Source: Acidobacteriota bacterium | GTDB taxonomy: Bacteria > Acidobacteriota > Terriglobia > Terriglobales > Acidobacteriaceae | Direction: 5' to 3' | Assembly: GCA_013289795.1 (NCBI GenBank) | Contig: JABCZH010000002.1 | Location: forward strand, 124,001 to 188,000 | DNA length: 64,000 nucleotides | Part shown: positions 9,751 through 41,788 of the stretch, in pieces | How the letters are laid out: every line of letters starts with the position of its first letter | Position numbering within the stretch: position 1 is the stretch's first letter | Translations under genes and position numbers: made by a program | The notes under the pieces: generated by a model | What the model saw: the letters and a program-made list of their open reading frames with translations, nothing else | Database searches by the model: none | What the model was told of the DNA's origin: nothing

Positions 9751-12420
9751 TTATTTCTTCTTCAATTCCGCGGTCCAGTTTTGTACGAGTGTCAACGGCT
9801 GCGAACTGCCTCCGTTTCGACTAATTGCTAGGAAACGTTGAGCGTCATGAGTAGGCTGGTATTGACGGCTGATGGTTTCCAAGTTCAGGCGGAATAGCGG
9901 CTTGGTGCCAACCACCAGAAACGTCGCCCCATTGCCATCGACCTGGGCGGATGAAAGCTGGCCGGAACCAAAATCAAAGAAGAAGAGTTCTTTGCCGTCG
10001 CCGCGCCAACGAGGCCAGGTTCCACCGTCGGTGGAAATTTGCCATTTCGCCCCCGTCCAGGGAAAGGGAGCCACATATACCTCCGGGCGTCCGGTCTCGT
10101 TGGAGTTGAATGCCACCCAGCGTCCATCGGGGGAGAAAGCTGCTGATTCCTCGTCGGTAGAAGAACTGGCGTAGGGAAAGGGCTTGCTGTCGCCGAACAT
10201 CGGAAGCACCATCACGTGCAGCTTGTTCCCCGAGCCCTGGTCGTACAAAATGTAGCGGCCATCGCGCGACCAATCGTCGACTTGGGGAAACGCGTTGGTG
10301 GAGGAAGACACCAATATTTTTTCGTCGGCCGCGCCGGTGGCGGGTTTGACAGCGATGGAACCCTGCTGATTAGTGGTAAACGCGATCTGTTTGCCATCCG
10401 GGGACCAGACCGGAGCCCGATGGGTTCCTCCGGCGAAAGTCAGACGGGTCTTCAGCTTGCTGGCCAGGTCAAACACCCAGATGGTGGCAGCCGCGGCATT
10501 GGCATCAGTCACCGCGACCTTCTTGTTATCCGGGGAAAGCTCAAGATCATAGAAGCCGAGGTTATCGTTGACAGTGTCGAGTTGCTTTCCGCTGCGGTCA
10601 TACCAGATCAAACTTTGGCCGCCCGAAGCCGCGCCGGAAGCGTACAGGAGCATGCCGTTATCGGAAACGCTGAAGTTCGCGTGCCACAGGCCCACATCGT
10701 TTTGCACATCCTCGCGGAGAGTTTCCGGCTCACCTTTCAATTGCCCCGCATCCGGATCGAAGCTTTGTGTCACCAGAGCATTCTCGCGCAGGAAAAGCAG
10801 GCGGCCAGAGGCGTAGCGAACGCTGGCAACAGTGTGAAACAGCAGCCGGTTTTCTTTTCCATCGAGTGAGGCCAGGAAAACGGCGGTATCCGGGCTGGTA
10901 GCAGCGTTGTGATTCACAGCCAGGTAAAGAAAATGCTTTCCGTCCGGCAGAAAGTTGGGCCAGCGGTGTGACGTCGCAGTGACGTTATCCACCTTCGTGA
11001 TCGGAGTCGGAGTACCCCCGGAGGACGATACCTGAAAGATTCCCGCGTTATAAAAAGGCGCGAAAACGATGGTACCGTTCGGACCCCAACTGGCGCCGCG
11101 TCCCAGGTTAGTGTCGCAGAGGGTAGTCGGTTGGCCCCCGGCAACTTCAATGCGCTTGAGCTTGCTGGGTGTGAAGAAACCAACGGAACGGCTGTCCGGC
11201 GACCAGAAAGGAAAGCTTGCTGCCTCGGTGCCGGGAAGCGGCTGCGGAGAAAGTGAGTCCAGCGAACGCAAGTAGAGTTGCAAATGACCGCCGCCGTTGG
11301 CAGAGAACACGAGATAGCGACCGTCAGGCGAGATTTCGGCGGGGCCGGCTTCGTCTCCGGTAAGGTTGAATTGTGTCTTGTCGGGCGGGCTGATCTGTAC
11401 CCGCAAGACCGGCACTTGCTTCTGGTTAGCCAGGTAGGCAAGGCCGCCGGTGACAATAGCGACAACCGCAAAGATCGCGGCAACGCCCCAAGCCAGCCTT
11501 TCACGATGCTTGCGGTGGACGACGATGACGGGAGCCGCTACACCGGGTTGCGATCCGCCTTCGCCAATCTGTTTGAGTTGCAGCCGGACGTCGTGAGCGG
11601 TTTGCCAGCGCTCGTCAGGATCCTTGGCCATGCAGGTTCTGACCAATTGATCCAGCGGCAACGGTGTCATGGGCTGGACGGAGCTGATGGGCGCAGGCTG
11701 GCGCTCTAATACCGCAGCCATTACGCTGGCTGTGGTCTTGCCCTCGAAGGCGCGCTTGCCGGTGGCCATTTCGTAAAGCACGGCTCCCAGCGCAAAAATG
11801 TCGCTGCCAGGGTCGGCTTCTTTGCCTTCCACCTGCTCCGGCGACATGTACTGAAAGGTCCCGACGACCGTGCCTTGCGCGGTCAGCGGTTGGTTGGGAC
11901 TGGCGACGGTCTGGGTCAAGCCCGAAGATTGTGCACTAACCGGGGCCACCGCCTTGGCTAGGCCAAAGTCCATCAGCTTGGCGCCGGACTTGGTCAACAT
12001 GATGTTGCCGGGCTTGAGGTCGCGATGCACCACGCCGCTGCGATGGGCGCGATCAAGGCCGTCTGCGATTTCCGCGCCTATCCGAAACAACTGCTCCAGC
12101 GGGAGCGGGCCTTTGACCAGGCGCGAGCCCAGCGTCTCGCCTTCCAGATACTCCATCACCAGGTAGCTGATTCCGTCCTGCTCGCCGACGTCATAGAGCT
12201 GGCAGATGTTGGGGTGATTGAGCGACGAGATGGCACGGGCCTCGCGCTCGAACCGTTCTTTCGCGTCGCGCTGGTCGGAGAGGTGCTGGGGAAGAATCTT
12301 GATGGCGACCGTTCGCTCCAGGCGAGTGTCGCGGGCACGGTAAACTTCGCCCATGCCTCCGGCACCGATGGGTGAGACGACCTCATAGGGGCCGAGTTTT
12401 GTACCGCTAGAGAGTGGCAT
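9751..12420 (-). CDS. Transmembrane Ser/Thr protein kinase with TolB/PD40-type beta-propeller
   Basis: The kinase domain covers about residues 10-285. It shows the glycine loop IGAGGMG (18-24), catalytic Lys in AIKIL (K41), HRDLKPGN (132-139) and DFG (151-153). All catalytic residues are present. A single membrane segment (about 310-332) leads to a C-terminal region of repeated WSPDG/FSPDGRW blades of the PD40/TolB propeller, likely outside the membrane. This arrangement is a common acidobacterial sensor kinase; propeller ligand and kinase targets are unknown. Length 889 residues. It lies upstream of and on the same strand as nothing obviously co-transcribed; the MFS gene is 70 bp further upstream on this strand. 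Confidence 0.92.
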   Translation of the reverse strand: MPLSSGTKLGPYEVVSPIGAGGMGEVYRARDTRLERTVAIKILPQHLSDQRDAKERFEREARAISSLNHPNICQLYDVGEQDGISYLVMEYLEGETLGSRLVKGPLPLEQLFRIGAEIADGLDRAHRSGVVHRDLKPGNIMLTKSGAKLMDFGLAKAVAPVSAQSSGLTQTVASPNQPLTAQGTVVGTFQYMSPEQVEGKEADPGSDIFALGAVLYEMATGKRAFEGKTTASVMAAVLERQPAPISSVQPMTPLPLDQLVRTCMAKDPDERWQTAHDVRLQLKQIGEGGSQPGVAAPVIVVHRKHRERLAWGVAAIFAVVAIVTGGLAYLANQKQVPVLRVQISPPDKTQFNLTGDEAGPAEISPDGRYLVFSANGGGHLQLYLRSLDSLSPQPLPGTEAASFPFWSPDSRSVGFFTPSKLKRIEVAGGQPTTLCDTNLGRGASWGPNGTIVFAPFYNAGIFQVSSSGGTPTPITKVDNVTATSHRWPNFLPDGKHFLYLAVNHNAATSPDTAVFLASLDGKENRLLFHTVASVRYASGRLLFLRENALVTQSFDPDAGQLKGEPETLREDVQNDVGLWHANFSVSDNGMLLYASGAASGGQSLIWYDRSGKQLDTVNDNLGFYDLELSPDNKKVAVTDANAAAATIWVFDLASKLKTRLTFAGGTHRAPVWSPDGKQIAFTTNQQGSIAVKPATGAADEKILVSSSTNAFPQVDDWSRDGRYILYDQGSGNKLHVMVLPMFGDSKPFPYASSSTDEESAAFSPDGRWVAFNSNETGRPEVYVAPFPWTGAKWQISTDGGTWPRWRGDGKELFFFDFGSGQLSSAQVDGNGATFLVVGTKPLFRLNLETISRQYQPTHDAQRFLAISRNGGSSQPLTLVQNWTAELKKK

Positions 12421-37929: not shown

Positions 37930-40911
37930 ATGGGAACCATCCACACCCCCGATCCCATCGTCGACCCCGAACGCCTCTTCGAGGGCTTCGAGAACCTGAT
38001 GCCCTTCCGGGTACAGGACATTCTCCTCGTCTCGAGCCTCTACGACTCCTTTATTCTGCGCGAAGATGGCCGGCTCAACGAACTGTTGATCGGCGAATCC
38101 CTCGAACTCAACTTGCAGCAGATTCCCGGAATTACCCATGTTTCGAGCGGGGCCGAGGCGCTGGCGCTGGCCCGCTCCCAGCCGCGCTTCAACTTGATCG
38201 TCACCAATCTGGAAGTTGAAGACATGGATGCGGCGCAACTGGCTCGCGAGGTCAAGGCTGCCGGACTCGATGTGCCCGTGGTGGTGCTGGCGTACGACTA
38301 CCGCGAGATCAAGAATTTTGTGGCCCGCAACCCCGTCACCGATCTGGAGTCGATTTTCCTGTGGCAAGGCAACGTCCGCATTCTGATTTCGATAATCAGC
38401 TACATCGAAGACAAGCGCAATGTGCTCCACGACACGCGGACCATCGGCGTGCCGGTGATTCTGGTGGTGGAGGATGACATTCGTTATTACTCGGCTTTTT
38501 TGCCGGTAATTTATACCGAGTTGATCACCCAGTCACGGCGGATCATCAGCGAAGGGCTGAACGTGGCCCACAAACTGGTGCGTATGCGGGCCCGGCCCAA
38601 GATTCTGCTCAGTTCCACTTATGAAGATGCGCTTCAGCAGGCCACGGAGTATCGCGACTATCTATTGGGCGTGGTGTCCGACATTGAATTTCCGCTTGGC
38701 GGTGAGTTGAGTACTGAGGCCGGTTTCGAGCTGGCTCGCCAGGTGCAGGAGAAAGTGCCGGACGTTCCCATCGTGCTGCAATCCAGCCGCACTGAATTTC
38801 GGGCGCGGGCCAATGCCGAAGGCTGTTCCTTCCTTCGCAAGCGCTCACCGACTCTGTTGCGAGACCTGCGACGGCTGCTGACGGAGCATCTGGGCTTTGG
38901 CGATTTTGTTTTCCGCCTGCCCGATCATACTGAGGTGGCCCGGGCCCGCGATTTGAACGAACTGGAAGCCCGGCTGCAAGAGGTTCCCGAGGAGAGCATC
39001 GCATACCACAGCGAGCGCAACCACTTTTCGCGCTGGTTGCGGGCGCGGACCGAGTTCGCCCTGGCGCAAAAGCTTCGCCCGCGCAAGGTCTCTGATTTCT
39101 CCACGCTCGAGGATCTGCGCCACGACCTGATCGACTCCATCGCCGACTACCGCAGCGAGCAGAGCCAAGTCTTAATTGGCGATTTCAATCCCGCGACTTT
39201 CAAGCCAGGCGATCACTACTTCTTGCGGATTGGCGGTGGTTCCCTGGGAGGCAAAGCTCGCGGGCTGGCCTTCGTTCGCCATCTGCTGCACAATAACCGC
39301 ATTGCCCGTCGTTTCCCTAACGTTCGTATTGTGGTGCCACCCAGCGTGGTGCTCGCAACCGACGTGTTTGACCGCTTCCTGAGCGAAAACAATCTGCTCG
39401 ACTTCGCCATGCACTCGACCGACGACGCTGATGTCCAGCGGCGGTTTCTGGCGGGAGCATTCCCTGCCCCGCTACGCGAGAATCTGCTGGCATTTCTGGC
39501 GGAGGTGCACTATCCGCTGGCGGTGCGTTCGTCGAGCTTGCTCGAAGACTCTCAATACGAGCCGTTCACCGGCGTGTATGAAACTTTCATGCTGGGCAAC
39601 CAGCACGCTGATCTCTTGATCCGCCTGGAACAACTCATGGAAGCGATCAAGCGGGTTTACGCTTCCACTTTCAGTTCCCATGCCAAGGCCTATGTGCGCT
39701 CGACGCCGTATCGGCTGGAAGAAGAAAAGATGGCGGTAATTCTGCAACAGGTGGTAGGAGCGATCCATGGGCAGCGGTTCTACCCTGATTTCTCCGGCGT
39801 GGTGCGATCGCACAATTTCTATCCTGTCCCTCCCATGAACTACGGCGACGGAATCGCAGCTGTGGCCCTGGGCATGGGGCGCGCCGTGGTGGATGGAGGC
39901 AAGTGCCTGACGTTTTGTCCCCGCTATCCGCGAAACCTGGTGCAATTCTCTTCGGTGGAGGACATCCTGGCCAACTCTCAGCGTGATTTCTGGGCGCTGG
40001 ACTTGAACCATGCGGAACCTCATGAAGACCCCCTGGCCGATCTGCGGGAAGTGCAATTCGGCCTCGACGCGGCCGAGACCGATGAGACCCTGCAAAACGT
40101 GGCATCAACTTATTCCGCGGACAATCACGTTGTCTATGACGGGCTCAGCCGGCCCGGGACGCGCATTGTGAGTTTCGCTCCAGTCCTCAAACACGACGTC
40201 TTCCCGCTCCCCGGAATTCTGGAACGCCTGACAAAGATCGGCGAAGACGCCTTTGGCCGCCCGGTCGAGATTGAGTTTGCGGTGCGGTTGCCGGAAAGCG
40301 TTCGCGGCCCATCCGAGTTTGGCTTTTTGCAGATTCGCCCGCTAGTGCTGTCGCGCGAAGGCGAAGAGTTGCGCATGGAGGATGTGAAGCCGGATCAGCT
40401 CATCTGCCAGAGCGCCAAAGTCCTGGGGAATGGAAGAATCCAGGATCTGCGTGACCTGGTCGTGGTCGACCTCCACCGCTTTGAAAGGACACGCAGTCAG
40501 GAAGTTGCCGAGGGCGTGGCCCAATTCAACGCAAAGCTGAACGAGAGTGGCCGGCCGTATTTGCTGATTGGAGTGGGGCGCTGGGGCTCGAACGATCCCT
40601 GGCTGGGAATTCCGGTGGAGTGGGACGAAATTTCAGGAGCACGCGTTATTGTTGAAGCCGGCTTCCGTGATTTTCGCGTGACTCCATCGCAAGGCAGTCA
40701 CTTCTTTCAGAATCTCACCGCATTTCAAGTGGGATACTTCACCGTGAATCCAGACGCCGGCGAGGGCTTCGTCGACTGGCAATGGCTGAGCGCTCAGCCC
40801 GCGGCTGAGGAGCGCGGGTGCGTGCGGCATCTACGGTTTGAGCAGCCGATGGTCGTGGTAATGAATGGAAAGACCAGCCAGGGAATGGTGTTCAAACCGC
40901 AAGCAGCATGA
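37930..40911 (+). CDS. Receiver-receiver-PEP/pyruvate-binding fusion protein
   Basis: This 993-residue protein has three parts. Residues about 28-160 resemble a receiver domain, but the phospho-acceptor position is N93 (IVTNLEVEDMD). Residues about 173-325 form a second receiver with VEDD (180-183), D251 (VVSDIEFP) and a Lys near 304, so it can be phosphorylated in principle. From about residue 415 the protein follows the PPDK N-terminal (PEP/pyruvate-binding, ATP-grasp) fold: GGSLGGKARGL (436-446) and RSSSLLEDSQYEPFTGVYET (533-552). The His swivelling and PEP TIM-barrel domains are absent; the C-terminus (VGRWGSNDPWLG) is its own. It may be an ATP-dependent regulator rather than a PPDK. Confidence 0.82.
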   Translation: MGTIHTPDPIVDPERLFEGFENLMPFRVQDILLVSSLYDSFILREDGRLNELLIGESLELNLQQIPGITHVSSGAEALALARSQPRFNLIVTNLEVEDMDAAQLAREVKAAGLDVPVVVLAYDYREIKNFVARNPVTDLESIFLWQGNVRILISIISYIEDKRNVLHDTRTIGVPVILVVEDDIRYYSAFLPVIYTELITQSRRIISEGLNVAHKLVRMRARPKILLSSTYEDALQQATEYRDYLLGVVSDIEFPLGGELSTEAGFELARQVQEKVPDVPIVLQSSRTEFRARANAEGCSFLRKRSPTLLRDLRRLLTEHLGFGDFVFRLPDHTEVARARDLNELEARLQEVPEESIAYHSERNHFSRWLRARTEFALAQKLRPRKVSDFSTLEDLRHDLIDSIADYRSEQSQVLIGDFNPATFKPGDHYFLRIGGGSLGGKARGLAFVRHLLHNNRIARRFPNVRIVVPPSVVLATDVFDRFLSENNLLDFAMHSTDDADVQRRFLAGAFPAPLRENLLAFLAEVHYPLAVRSSSLLEDSQYEPFTGVYETFMLGNQHADLLIRLEQLMEAIKRVYASTFSSHAKAYVRSTPYRLEEEKMAVILQQVVGAIHGQRFYPDFSGVVRSHNFYPVPPMNYGDGIAAVALGMGRAVVDGGKCLTFCPRYPRNLVQFSSVEDILANSQRDFWALDLNHAEPHEDPLADLREVQFGLDAAETDETLQNVASTYSADNHVVYDGLSRPGTRIVSFAPVLKHDVFPLPGILERLTKIGEDAFGRPVEIEFAVRLPESVRGPSEFGFLQIRPLVLSREGEELRMEDVKPDQLICQSAKVLGNGRIQDLRDLVVVDLHRFERTRSQEVAEGVAQFNAKLNESGRPYLLIGVGRWGSNDPWLGIPVEWDEISGARVIVEAGFRDFRVTPSQGSHFFQNLTAFQVGYFTVNPDAGEGFVDWQWLSAQPAAEERGCVRHLRFEQPMVVVMNGKTSQGMVFKPQAA

Positions 40912-40939: not shown

Positions 40940-41734
40940 CTAGTAGCGGCGTTCCCTGATCCAGATTCTGACTTGCTCTTCGACCGAGAAACCCTCCGCC
41001 GGATTCTGCACAAACTTCGATTCCAGGGCGAAGGTATGGGCCTCAAGTGGCACGGTGAAATGTGAGTTCGTCCTGAGAAAACCATCGACGAAGGCGCGAG
41101 TGTAGCGCTCTGGCCCGAGGAGTTGAAACTGGACGGCATGCACCAACCCGTGAAACAGGTCCCGCTCTGTGATTCTTTCGTTGAATACCACGACATCGAC
41201 AAAGGTCAGCGACGCCATGTGCGTAACCTGCGGCAGGTTAGCGATGCCCAGCGCCTTCGCTTCGGAGTAAAACGACGGATTCGGAAGTCGCGCGCCGCCC
41301 AGTTCCACAATTCTCACGCGGTCGAGGATGCCGGGGGAAAAGAACGGCCGCATGAGGGCCTTGTGCTCCGCGCTGAGGGGTTCCCCCGCAGCATAGTGGC
41401 GGTCGCGCTGCTCTCGCAGGTACGCCAGAACTCGTTCGGTGGCGCGAGAAATCTGTTCCTCGGGCAACATTGTCCCGCCGGTGTTCGGCCCCGCAGCCTC
41501 GCGCGGAATGAGCTTTTCGATGGAACTGTAGTAATCGTTCAGGTCGCTGGCTGCGGCGATGGCTTTGCGCAAGATCGAGCGCTCCCCAAACCGGGCCAGA
41601 TCATCGATTGAGAAACGGAGACGAAGTTGGTGGGTAGCGCACTGTGCGCTGATGAGTTCCAACTCTGCGTGGTGCAACTCGGCATCCATTTGGACAATAG
41701 CAATCCTGTCATCTGGATCATCCCAGGAAAACAT
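40940..41734 (-). CDS. Hypothetical protein with degenerate peptidase motif, TetR-linked
   Basis: I do not recognise a named family. The 264-residue product contains ERDLFHGLVHAVQFQLLG, which matches the helix of HExxH-type proteins (usually HELVHVVQ) with the catalytic Glu replaced by Gly. The later VPLEAHTFALESKF matches the third-ligand position of that type. Thus metal may still bind but proteolysis is doubtful. ATG 41734 has GGGAG eight bases upstream and is preferred to the TTG at 41761. It is divergent from the TetR gene, whose operator overlaps its promoter, so it is a probable target. Confidence 0.62.
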   Translation of the reverse strand: MFSWDDPDDRIAIVQMDAELHHAELELISAQCATHQLRLRFSIDDLARFGERSILRKAIAAASDLNDYYSSIEKLIPREAAGPNTGGTMLPEEQISRATERVLAYLREQRDRHYAAGEPLSAEHKALMRPFFSPGILDRVRIVELGGARLPNPSFYSEAKALGIANLPQVTHMASLTFVDVVVFNERITERDLFHGLVHAVQFQLLGPERYTRAFVDGFLRTNSHFTVPLEAHTFALESKFVQNPAEGFSVEEQVRIWIRERRY

Positions 41735-41788
41735 TCGGTAAACTCCCAATTGAGCTTGCAAACTGCCGGAAAGGACCTATACTCATTA

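Follow-up and report, generated by a model that had tools for sequence, protein, structure and literature searches.

The stretch analysed here, called the window, comprises 64,000 nucleotides of an Acidobacteriota bacterium (contig JABCZH010000002.1, positions 124,001 to 188,000). It carries one intact reading frame for a protein, termed PK, in which two receiver domains are fused to an ATP-grasp domain of the pyruvate phosphate dikinase type (PPDK_N). Upstream on the same strand lies a gene for a glutamate dehydrogenase (GDH; Table 1). The initial annotation of PK had found no partner for it; based on a linkage that is conserved across genomes, we propose that this missing partner is very probably GDH. 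Neither the GDH gene, the DUF5752-like linker of PK nor its invariant His924 had figured in that annotation.

Table 1. Positions of PK, its domains and the GDH gene within the window
Feature	Position	Strand	Description and basis
PK (main reading frame)	37930..40911	+	993 aa; pseudo-receiver, receiver, DUF5752-like linker, PPDK_N ATP-grasp, C-terminal His domain
Receiver 1, pseudo-receiver (~aa 30-172)	38017..38445	+	Strand/helix order in model; conservation columns; weak Pfam match
Receiver 2, intact (~aa 173-325)	38446..38904	+	Structural matches to receiver domains; conservation
DUF5752-like linker (~aa 326-420)	38905..39189	+	Pfam PF19027, 4e-7 at 337-413; conservation
ATP-grasp (PPDK_N) domain (~aa 421-806)	39190..40347	+	Pfam PF01326, 3e-35; structural matches
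C-terminal domain (aa 807-993)	40348..40908	+	H924 80/80; domain model; swivel-domain structural rows; no Pfam family
GDH, NADP-specific type, 464 aa	34430..35824	+	NCBIfam NF006929, 756 bits vs cut-off 536

The PK frame contains no internal stop. Its Pfam match to PPDK_N (residues 438-816) passes the cut-off and is accompanied by the DUF5752 match and by a weak Response_reg match at 45-121 (7e-6, under the cut-off). No further Pfam family is matched at E <= 1, and neither the phosphoenolpyruvate (PEP)/pyruvate barrel nor a PEP-utilizer domain is found at that threshold. The best NCBIfam models, of PEP synthase-like and prodigiosin/undecylprodigiosin ligase type, all lie far under their cut-offs. 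An AlphaFold2 model built on 64 sequences (alignment A1: the window plus 63 copies, drawn from 62 of the 79 loci described below; a second alignment, A2, has 43 rows) reaches a mean pLDDT of 84.9 and a pTM of 0.72. By its order of strands and helices, two receiver-like units (~30-172 and ~173-325) come first; a helical linker then leads to the ATP-grasp domain, which is followed by an alpha/beta domain at the C-terminus. Pfam and model together uphold the receiver-receiver-PPDK_N fusion first read from the sequence, and the motifs on which that reading leaned (GGSLGGKARGL, RSSSLLEDS, N93, EDD 181-183, D251) are all in place. The ATP-grasp domain finds structural matches in rifampin phosphotransferase (RPH) and PEP synthase at Z ~26. 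Only 187 residues follow it and none match the PEP/pyruvate barrel family of Pfam, in agreement with the initial annotation that the TIM barrel is missing. In its PPDK_N ATP-grasp and conserved ATP-site positions, PK agrees with the dikinase superfamily formed by PPDK, PEP synthase and RPH.

The two receivers differ in their acceptor position. Receiver 1 has the alternating strand/helix order in the model, with Ser35/Ser36 after strand 1 and Trp145 late in the domain, and carries N93 (codon 38206-38208) at the position of the phospho-acceptor. The absence of the acceptor Asp, noted before for the single protein, is a family trait: position 93 is Asp in 0 of 79 sequences (N35, T33, S8, A3). Having the receiver fold without the acceptor Asp, the domain is an aspartate-less receiver (ALR). 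Receiver 2, to which receiver-domain structures align at ~173-326 with Z up to 16.8, has E181, D182, the acceptor D251 (codon 38680-38682), S285 and K304. Judged by this acidic pair, acceptor Asp, Ser/Thr and Lys, it qualifies as an intact two-component receiver; E181, D182 and D251 are each found in 80/80 sequences, position 285 is S60/T20 and K304 occurs in 79/79. The full acidic set formerly ascribed to it holds for E181, D182 and D251, but not for D183, which is variable (N in 62/80). The linker that follows contains a strongly conserved H-x-E-R-N-H-F-S segment. A stand-alone 240-aa DUF5752 frame is present elsewhere in the same genome (contig 2:399997-400620), and among 14 control genomes the DUF5752 family was seen only in Sulfolobus acidocaldarius.

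Relatives of PK were collected by scanning GTDB genome contigs with six short peptide patterns taken from the protein. The scan gave at least 588 stretches, and among these 564 encode a relative at E <= 1e-3. The best 80 of these 564 were kept, in 79 loci, a set that is skewed toward close relatives; together with the window, the loci provide the 80 sequences, a few of them incomplete, on which all family conservation is counted. The relatives are 52-83% identical to PK and cover nearly the whole query in 77 of the 79 loci, the copies of L033 and L050 being cut by contig ends. The architecture appears in records titled Acidobacteria, Gemmatimonadetes, Eisenbacteria, Ignavibacteria/Bacteroidetes/Chlorobi, Calditrichota, Zixiibacteriota, Krumholzibacteriia and Latescibacterota, and in metagenome bins labelled Alphaproteobacteria (two), Thermoleophilia and an actinobacterium. 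Since it is found under the titles of several phyla, this architecture is not a product of chance.

The family is strongly constrained along its full length. K442, R533, E780, E782, Q801 and R803, which we take to be equivalents of PPDK ATP-site residues, are each conserved in 80/80 sequences; E780 stands where PPDK has Asp. In the C-terminal domain the invariant positions are G881, G883, G886, G893, W898, E909, Q921, G922, H924, F925, F926, Q927 and N928, and the 11 further copies and paralogs that were aligned all have H924 too. To judge from the sequences, both halves are constrained as one would expect of an active, regulated protein and not of a remnant. The copies of L027, L029, L030 and G208 contig 31 are split over two frames or shortened, by assembly errors or as broken genes. 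Two contigs labelled Alphaproteobacteria (L022 and L031) hold copies 73% and 69% identical to PK with a linked GDH, either through a binning error or through horizontal transfer. Frames of 523 aa (G082 contig 55:20106-20876) and 480 aa (G146 contig 100:12154-12969) match only model positions ~125-391 and would represent the regulatory half, second receiver and linker, without the ATP-grasp half.

The GDH gene of the window lies 2105 bp upstream of PK. When neighbouring genes were clustered over 110 loci, partly overlapping and including overlapping loci of the same genomes, GDH was the dominant neighbour (69/110); the next cluster reached 20 loci, and its members that were checked lie on the strand opposite to GDH or PK. 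In the phylum of the window, 62 of 197 genomes contain copies of at least 985 bits, 64 copies in all, from 35 genera with 14/62 genomes belonging to one genus; three copies (G128, G137, G169) are incomplete. The linkage counts omit fragments in G047 and G005 contig 294 as well as divergent copies outside the 62 genomes, and some second or third GDH rows were not typed, none of which shares a contig with a copy scored as unlinked. A GDH gene lies within 5 kb of 53 of these 64 copies. For 47 of the 64, the closest GDH precedes PK on the same strand, at a distance of 27-428 bp except in the window (2157 bp in this count) and G145 (672 bp). The rough expectation by chance is 0.5 copies, assuming 2.25 GDH genes per 4.2 Mb genome.

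The same arrangement recurs in a second phylum, sampled by 118 genomes centred on that of L057; going by the title of L057, an Ignavibacteriales bin, this is the Bacteroidota/Ignavibacteria group. Here, 16 genomes carry 21 copies (in G208, two pieces of a broken copy count as one). Of these, 18 lie within 5 kb of a GDH gene, against a rough chance expectation of 0.2, and 17 have a GDH upstream on the same strand. Over the 79 loci, GDH is within 5 kb in 57; of the 22 that remain, 15 have under 5 kb of sequence upstream. Presence of the two genes is correlated as well: a GDH at least 60% identical to that of the window occurs in 60/62 genomes with PK and in 5/48 without it (50 hand-picked genomes minus G026 and G047, which carry the protein whole or in pieces). 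The Fisher p-value of ~2e-22 for this contrast is inflated by shared ancestry. In the second phylum, the corresponding figures are 16/16 and 3/24; 20 of the 98 genomes without a match were examined for GDH there.

The pairing extends to paralogs of PK. A short class (~580-640 aa frames) has no receivers and consists of the ATP-grasp and C-terminal domains, and a divergent class (~780-1170 aa) combines PPDK_N with the same C-terminal domain including its His; in both, the ATP-site positions and H924 are nearly invariant. Among the copies listed for the 62 genomes of the window's phylum (10 short, 31 divergent), 8/10 short and 23/31 divergent paralogs lie within 5 kb of a GDH gene; in the second phylum the counts are 5/6 and 7/9. 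The nearest GDH is 30-36% identical to that of the window in 11/13 short and 26/30 divergent cases, and 63-77% identical in the rest. From these distances and identities it follows that three classes of PPDK_N proteins are attached to two types of GDH gene. In addition, four loci (L053, L069, L072, L073) have the order GDH-PK-GDH-PK, and in both proteins 8/8 copies are nearest to the copies at the same position of the other arrays. As far as sequence comparison can tell, these tandem arrays show every copy remaining with the GDH that belongs to it.

Two of the divergent paralogs (L096:6124-9300 and L103:4484-7666, both on the + strand) bear a nucleotidyltransferase (NTP_transf_2) domain at the C-terminus, a domain not found in the divergent copies scanned from L104 and L106 or in the cut stretch of L095. 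These GDH-linked fusions may have a GlnE-like activity beside the second GDH type. In L096 (3090-9300, +), a GDH, a receiver-less short paralog and the nucleotidyltransferase-fused paralog follow each other compactly on one strand, possibly as one operon.

The C-terminal domain of PK holds H924 (codon 40699-40701), a candidate phosphohistidine, and the segments GRWGS...LGIPV and PSQGSHFFQN. The model places H924 at the N-terminus of helix 923-931, between strands 904-910 and 935-940; the catalytic His of PPDK has a similar place, at the beginning of a helix flanked by two strands. Taken as a whole, the model can be superposed on PEP synthase (418-991 vs chain 4-467, Z 25.7, rmsd 4.3, 365 aligned) and on PPDK (414-990 vs chain 9-510, Z 18.1, rmsd 4.8, 348 aligned), and both alignments extend beyond the ATP-grasp domain. 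Modelled in isolation, the domain (aa 807-993; pLDDT 89.4, pTM 0.88) has RPH, PPDK and the extra C-terminal domain of pyruvate kinase, which is akin to swivel domains, in its 13 top structural rows (Z 7.1-5.9). RPH 756-867 aligns at Z 7.1 to 5.9 (best row rmsd 3.1, 112 aligned), the pyruvate kinase domain at Z 7.1 and PPDK at Z 6.8 to 6.2. The alignment with PEP synthase takes in its His422, and the swivel domain of RPH is formed by residues 767-865, with His825 (PMC4844700).

The order of the predicted fold and the site of the invariant His thus make this a probable swivel domain, an assignment to which several results are opposed. A Z of ~7 is weak and in a range reachable by a common arrangement, and the unrelated L,D-carboxypeptidase, RraA and glutamate carboxypeptidase come next in the same search at Z 5-5.7. 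Foldseek against the PDB gave no match for the domain at E <= 1e-3. Comparison by hhalign with PEP-utilizer profiles, starting from A2 and from a deeper alignment (129 sequences, of which 101 entered; Neff 3.7), gave ~0.2% probability and so no sequence similarity; no Pfam family matched either, and the GGMTSHA segment of PPDK is replaced by PSQGSHF. The statement in the initial annotation that PK has no phosphohistidine domain is therefore doubtful, although it stands as far as similarity to PEP-utilizer profiles is concerned. The hidden phosphohistidine domain in the C-terminal residues, set down beforehand as the contrary evidence, is half there: the His and the structural rows point to it, the sequence similarity does not.

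Other genes accompany PK in part of the family. In seven genomes (L047, L091, L092, L095, L098, L103, L105), a calcineurin-like metallophosphoesterase gene (PF00149) lies directly downstream on the same strand, with gaps of ~0 to 230 bp. Genes for NfnA- and NfnB/GltD-like proteins (ferredoxin:NADP oxidoreductase) are found downstream in eight loci (L005, L010, L012, L027, L028, L029, L033, L039; labelled Acidobacteria, Terriglobia or Sulfotelmatobacter), in six of them within ~400 bp, and none were recognised among the window reading frames scanned. With seven genomes and eight loci only, and neither recognised in the window frames scanned, both were rejected as a universal partner. The window further encodes an 889-aa Ser/Thr protein kinase with WD40-like PD40 repeats (9751-12420, -) and, just downstream of PK on the opposite strand, a 273-aa frame (40940-41761, -) with no Pfam or NCBIfam match.

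The anatomy, conservation, GDH linkage and tandem pairing established by sequence comparison can be put together in one mechanism. A histidine kinase encoded elsewhere, sensing the nitrogen or carbon state, would phosphorylate D251, and this would release the ATP-grasp and His domains. The ATP-grasp domain would then phosphorylate H924 in dikinase fashion, with the beta-phosphate of ATP and formation of AMP; that dikinase chemistry runs through H924 is, in our estimate, reasonably likely. Phospho-H924 would pass its phosphate to the GDH encoded next to it and alter GDH activity, and in some lineages the neighbouring metallophosphoesterase would reverse the modification. The partnership with GDH is well supported; the phosphorylation of D251, the phosphohistidine, the transfer and its target we infer. 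GDH is proposed as the acceptor because PK has no recognised second-substrate domain and GDH is its constant companion, and for the GDH protein as target the scales are level. We are evenly divided, too, on PK as a receiver-gated, dikinase-type phosphotransferase that is dedicated to GDH and probably modifies it. The widest form is offered tentatively, with doubt outweighing belief: GDH in several phyla would be under covalent phosphotransfer from its own two-component-gated dikinase via a phosphohistidine carrier, some lineages having a phosphatase as well, and the receiver-less and nucleotidyltransferase-fused paralogs would serve the second GDH type.

A number of observations count against this mechanism or the linkage on which it is built. 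In the window itself, two genes, encoding a CarboxypepD_reg-like protein and an alpha/beta hydrolase, separate GDH from PK. No GDH is found within 5 kb of 11/64 and 3/21 copies in the two phyla, and 7/79 loci (L011, L014, L020, L021, L024, L026, L039) are truly unlinked despite at least 5 kb of upstream sequence. As all seven are labelled Acidobacteriaceae or Terriglobia, the linkage is looser in the lineage of the window. Two of the 62 genomes with PK have no close GDH and 5/48 without it have one. The tandem arrays may stem from one ancient, inherited duplication. A more distant copy beyond the 80, L110, has Lys at position 803. The metallophosphoesterase occurs in a minority of loci and was not recognised in the window reading frames scanned, and no histidine kinase was seen among the ten large window frames scanned or recognised among the neighbour clusters examined. 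Finally, the acceptor could be a metabolite and not GDH itself. Two further lines were set aside. Twenty-three GDH columns separate 74 linked or presumably linked GDHs from six unlinked ones (E. coli included) but were not used to locate a modification site, because the unlinked GDHs are distant in the tree and the columns may mark only ancestry. A mirror-tree correlation of r = 0.52 (62 pairs) was not taken as proof, as shared species history also yields it.

The small-molecule alternative keeps the GDH partnership and would let PK phosphorylate glutamate, 2-oxoglutarate or a downstream compound, as RPH and HpeHI do with their substrates. The known barrel-less dikinases act on small molecules (PMC4844700, PMC12167813), the ATP site and His are conserved, and a linkage with GDH and NfnAB fits a metabolic module. 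However, Pfam recognises no third, substrate-binding domain of the kind present in RPH, the receivers, pseudo-receiver and linker look regulatory, and the tandem copies that stay with their own GDH are a better fit to protein-protein specificity, so that we regard a small acceptor as unlikely. Given the same slim chance is a non-catalytic PK that binds GDH and sets its activity allosterically, with the ATP-grasp domain sensing ATP/AMP and the receivers a two-component signal. The tight linkage, a pseudo-receiver and linker suited to protein contacts, and a phosphohistidine domain with weak fold evidence and no sequence evidence are all in line with such a regulator, yet ATP-site positions and H924 conserved in 80/80 sequences, and nearly so in paralogs, are what is expected of a catalyst.

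The link with GDH could also reflect mere co-regulation in a nitrogen/redox operon while PK acts on something else. The NfnA/NfnB and metallophosphoesterase genes that follow in some lineages, the two intervening genes in the window and the seven unlinked loci of its lineage are compatible with this, but no other neighbour cluster comes near the frequency of GDH (69/110 vs 20) and the same pairing is found in three paralog classes with two GDH types, which leaves co-regulation improbable. Lower still we place a degenerate or misannotated PEP synthase or PPDK, which we consider hardly credible. The best NCBIfam models are of that type, though far under their cut-offs; PK has no barrel match and only its short C-terminal part after the ATP-grasp domain, the family is strongly constrained over its length, and its own genome has a separate 931-aa PPDK-like frame on contig 17. 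This frame is the only other PPDK_N match of the genome and holds its only PEP-utilizer match. We therefore reject a metabolic PEP synthase or PPDK. The view of the initial annotation, that PK is a receiver-controlled ATP-grasp enzyme or phosphotransfer regulator and not a metabolic dikinase, is supported by the intact acceptor set and by a barrel that is not found.

Among known systems, PK resembles RPH, to which the whole model is structurally closest (Z 26.3), in its PPDK_N-type ATP-grasp domain and probably in a C-terminal, His-bearing, swivel-like domain; with RPH, HpeHI, CreHI and PpsAB it shares the lack of a PEP/pyruvate barrel. Unlike the RPH/HpeHI-type dikinases, it has no recognised RIF- or phenol-binding domain and carries two receivers and a DUF5752-like linker instead, its C-terminal domain is without detectable PEP-utilizer sequence similarity, and it is linked to GDH. 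Likewise, it shares the ATP-grasp domain, the ATP-site residues and possibly a His carrier domain with PPDK and PEP synthase, but has no TIM barrel match and exists beside a PPDK-like gene in its genome. In dikinases the His is phosphorylated from the beta-phosphate of ATP and the phosphate is then passed to a second site; the RPH authors pointed to a large unexplored group of such enzymes (PMC4844700). Barrel-less and even split dikinases are known, as in RPH and HpeHI (PMC12167813). A survey of 2015 reports a strong association of ALRs with pyruvate phosphate dikinase effector domains and places Acidobacteria high by number of ALRs (PMC4395418). The PK family is probably among these catalogued ALR-PPDK proteins, for which the available text of that survey gives no function, second intact receiver or GDH link. 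The survey presents the pairing of Asp-less receivers with PPDK as a statistic; the reading proposed here puts a dikinase-superfamily core into a regulatory role. No paper linking GDH to a PPDK_N/receiver protein was found in the open-access literature search, most subscription journals being outside its scope.

At GDH, carbon and nitrogen metabolism meet in a textbook branch point, and we know of no established dedicated ATP-dependent modifying enzyme for bacterial GDH. Regulators devoted to one central enzyme of nitrogen or carbon metabolism are GlnE (glutamine synthetase adenylyltransferase), PDRP1 (PPDK regulatory protein) and GarA, the latter a non-covalent GDH-binding inhibitor of actinobacteria. 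The role proposed for PK toward GDH resembles that of GlnE toward glutamine synthetase, but the domains of all three regulators are unrelated to those of PK, and a nucleotidyltransferase is seen here only in two scanned copies of the divergent paralog class. A receiver/ATP-grasp/His family that is inherited with GDH makes GDH modification testable with two purified proteins, and it suggests a role for proteins that match PEP synthase models best among the curated ones without satisfying them. If the proposal is true, dikinase chemistry would be extended from metabolites to a protein target, and GDH would have an undescribed counterpart of the control that GlnE exerts on glutamine synthetase.

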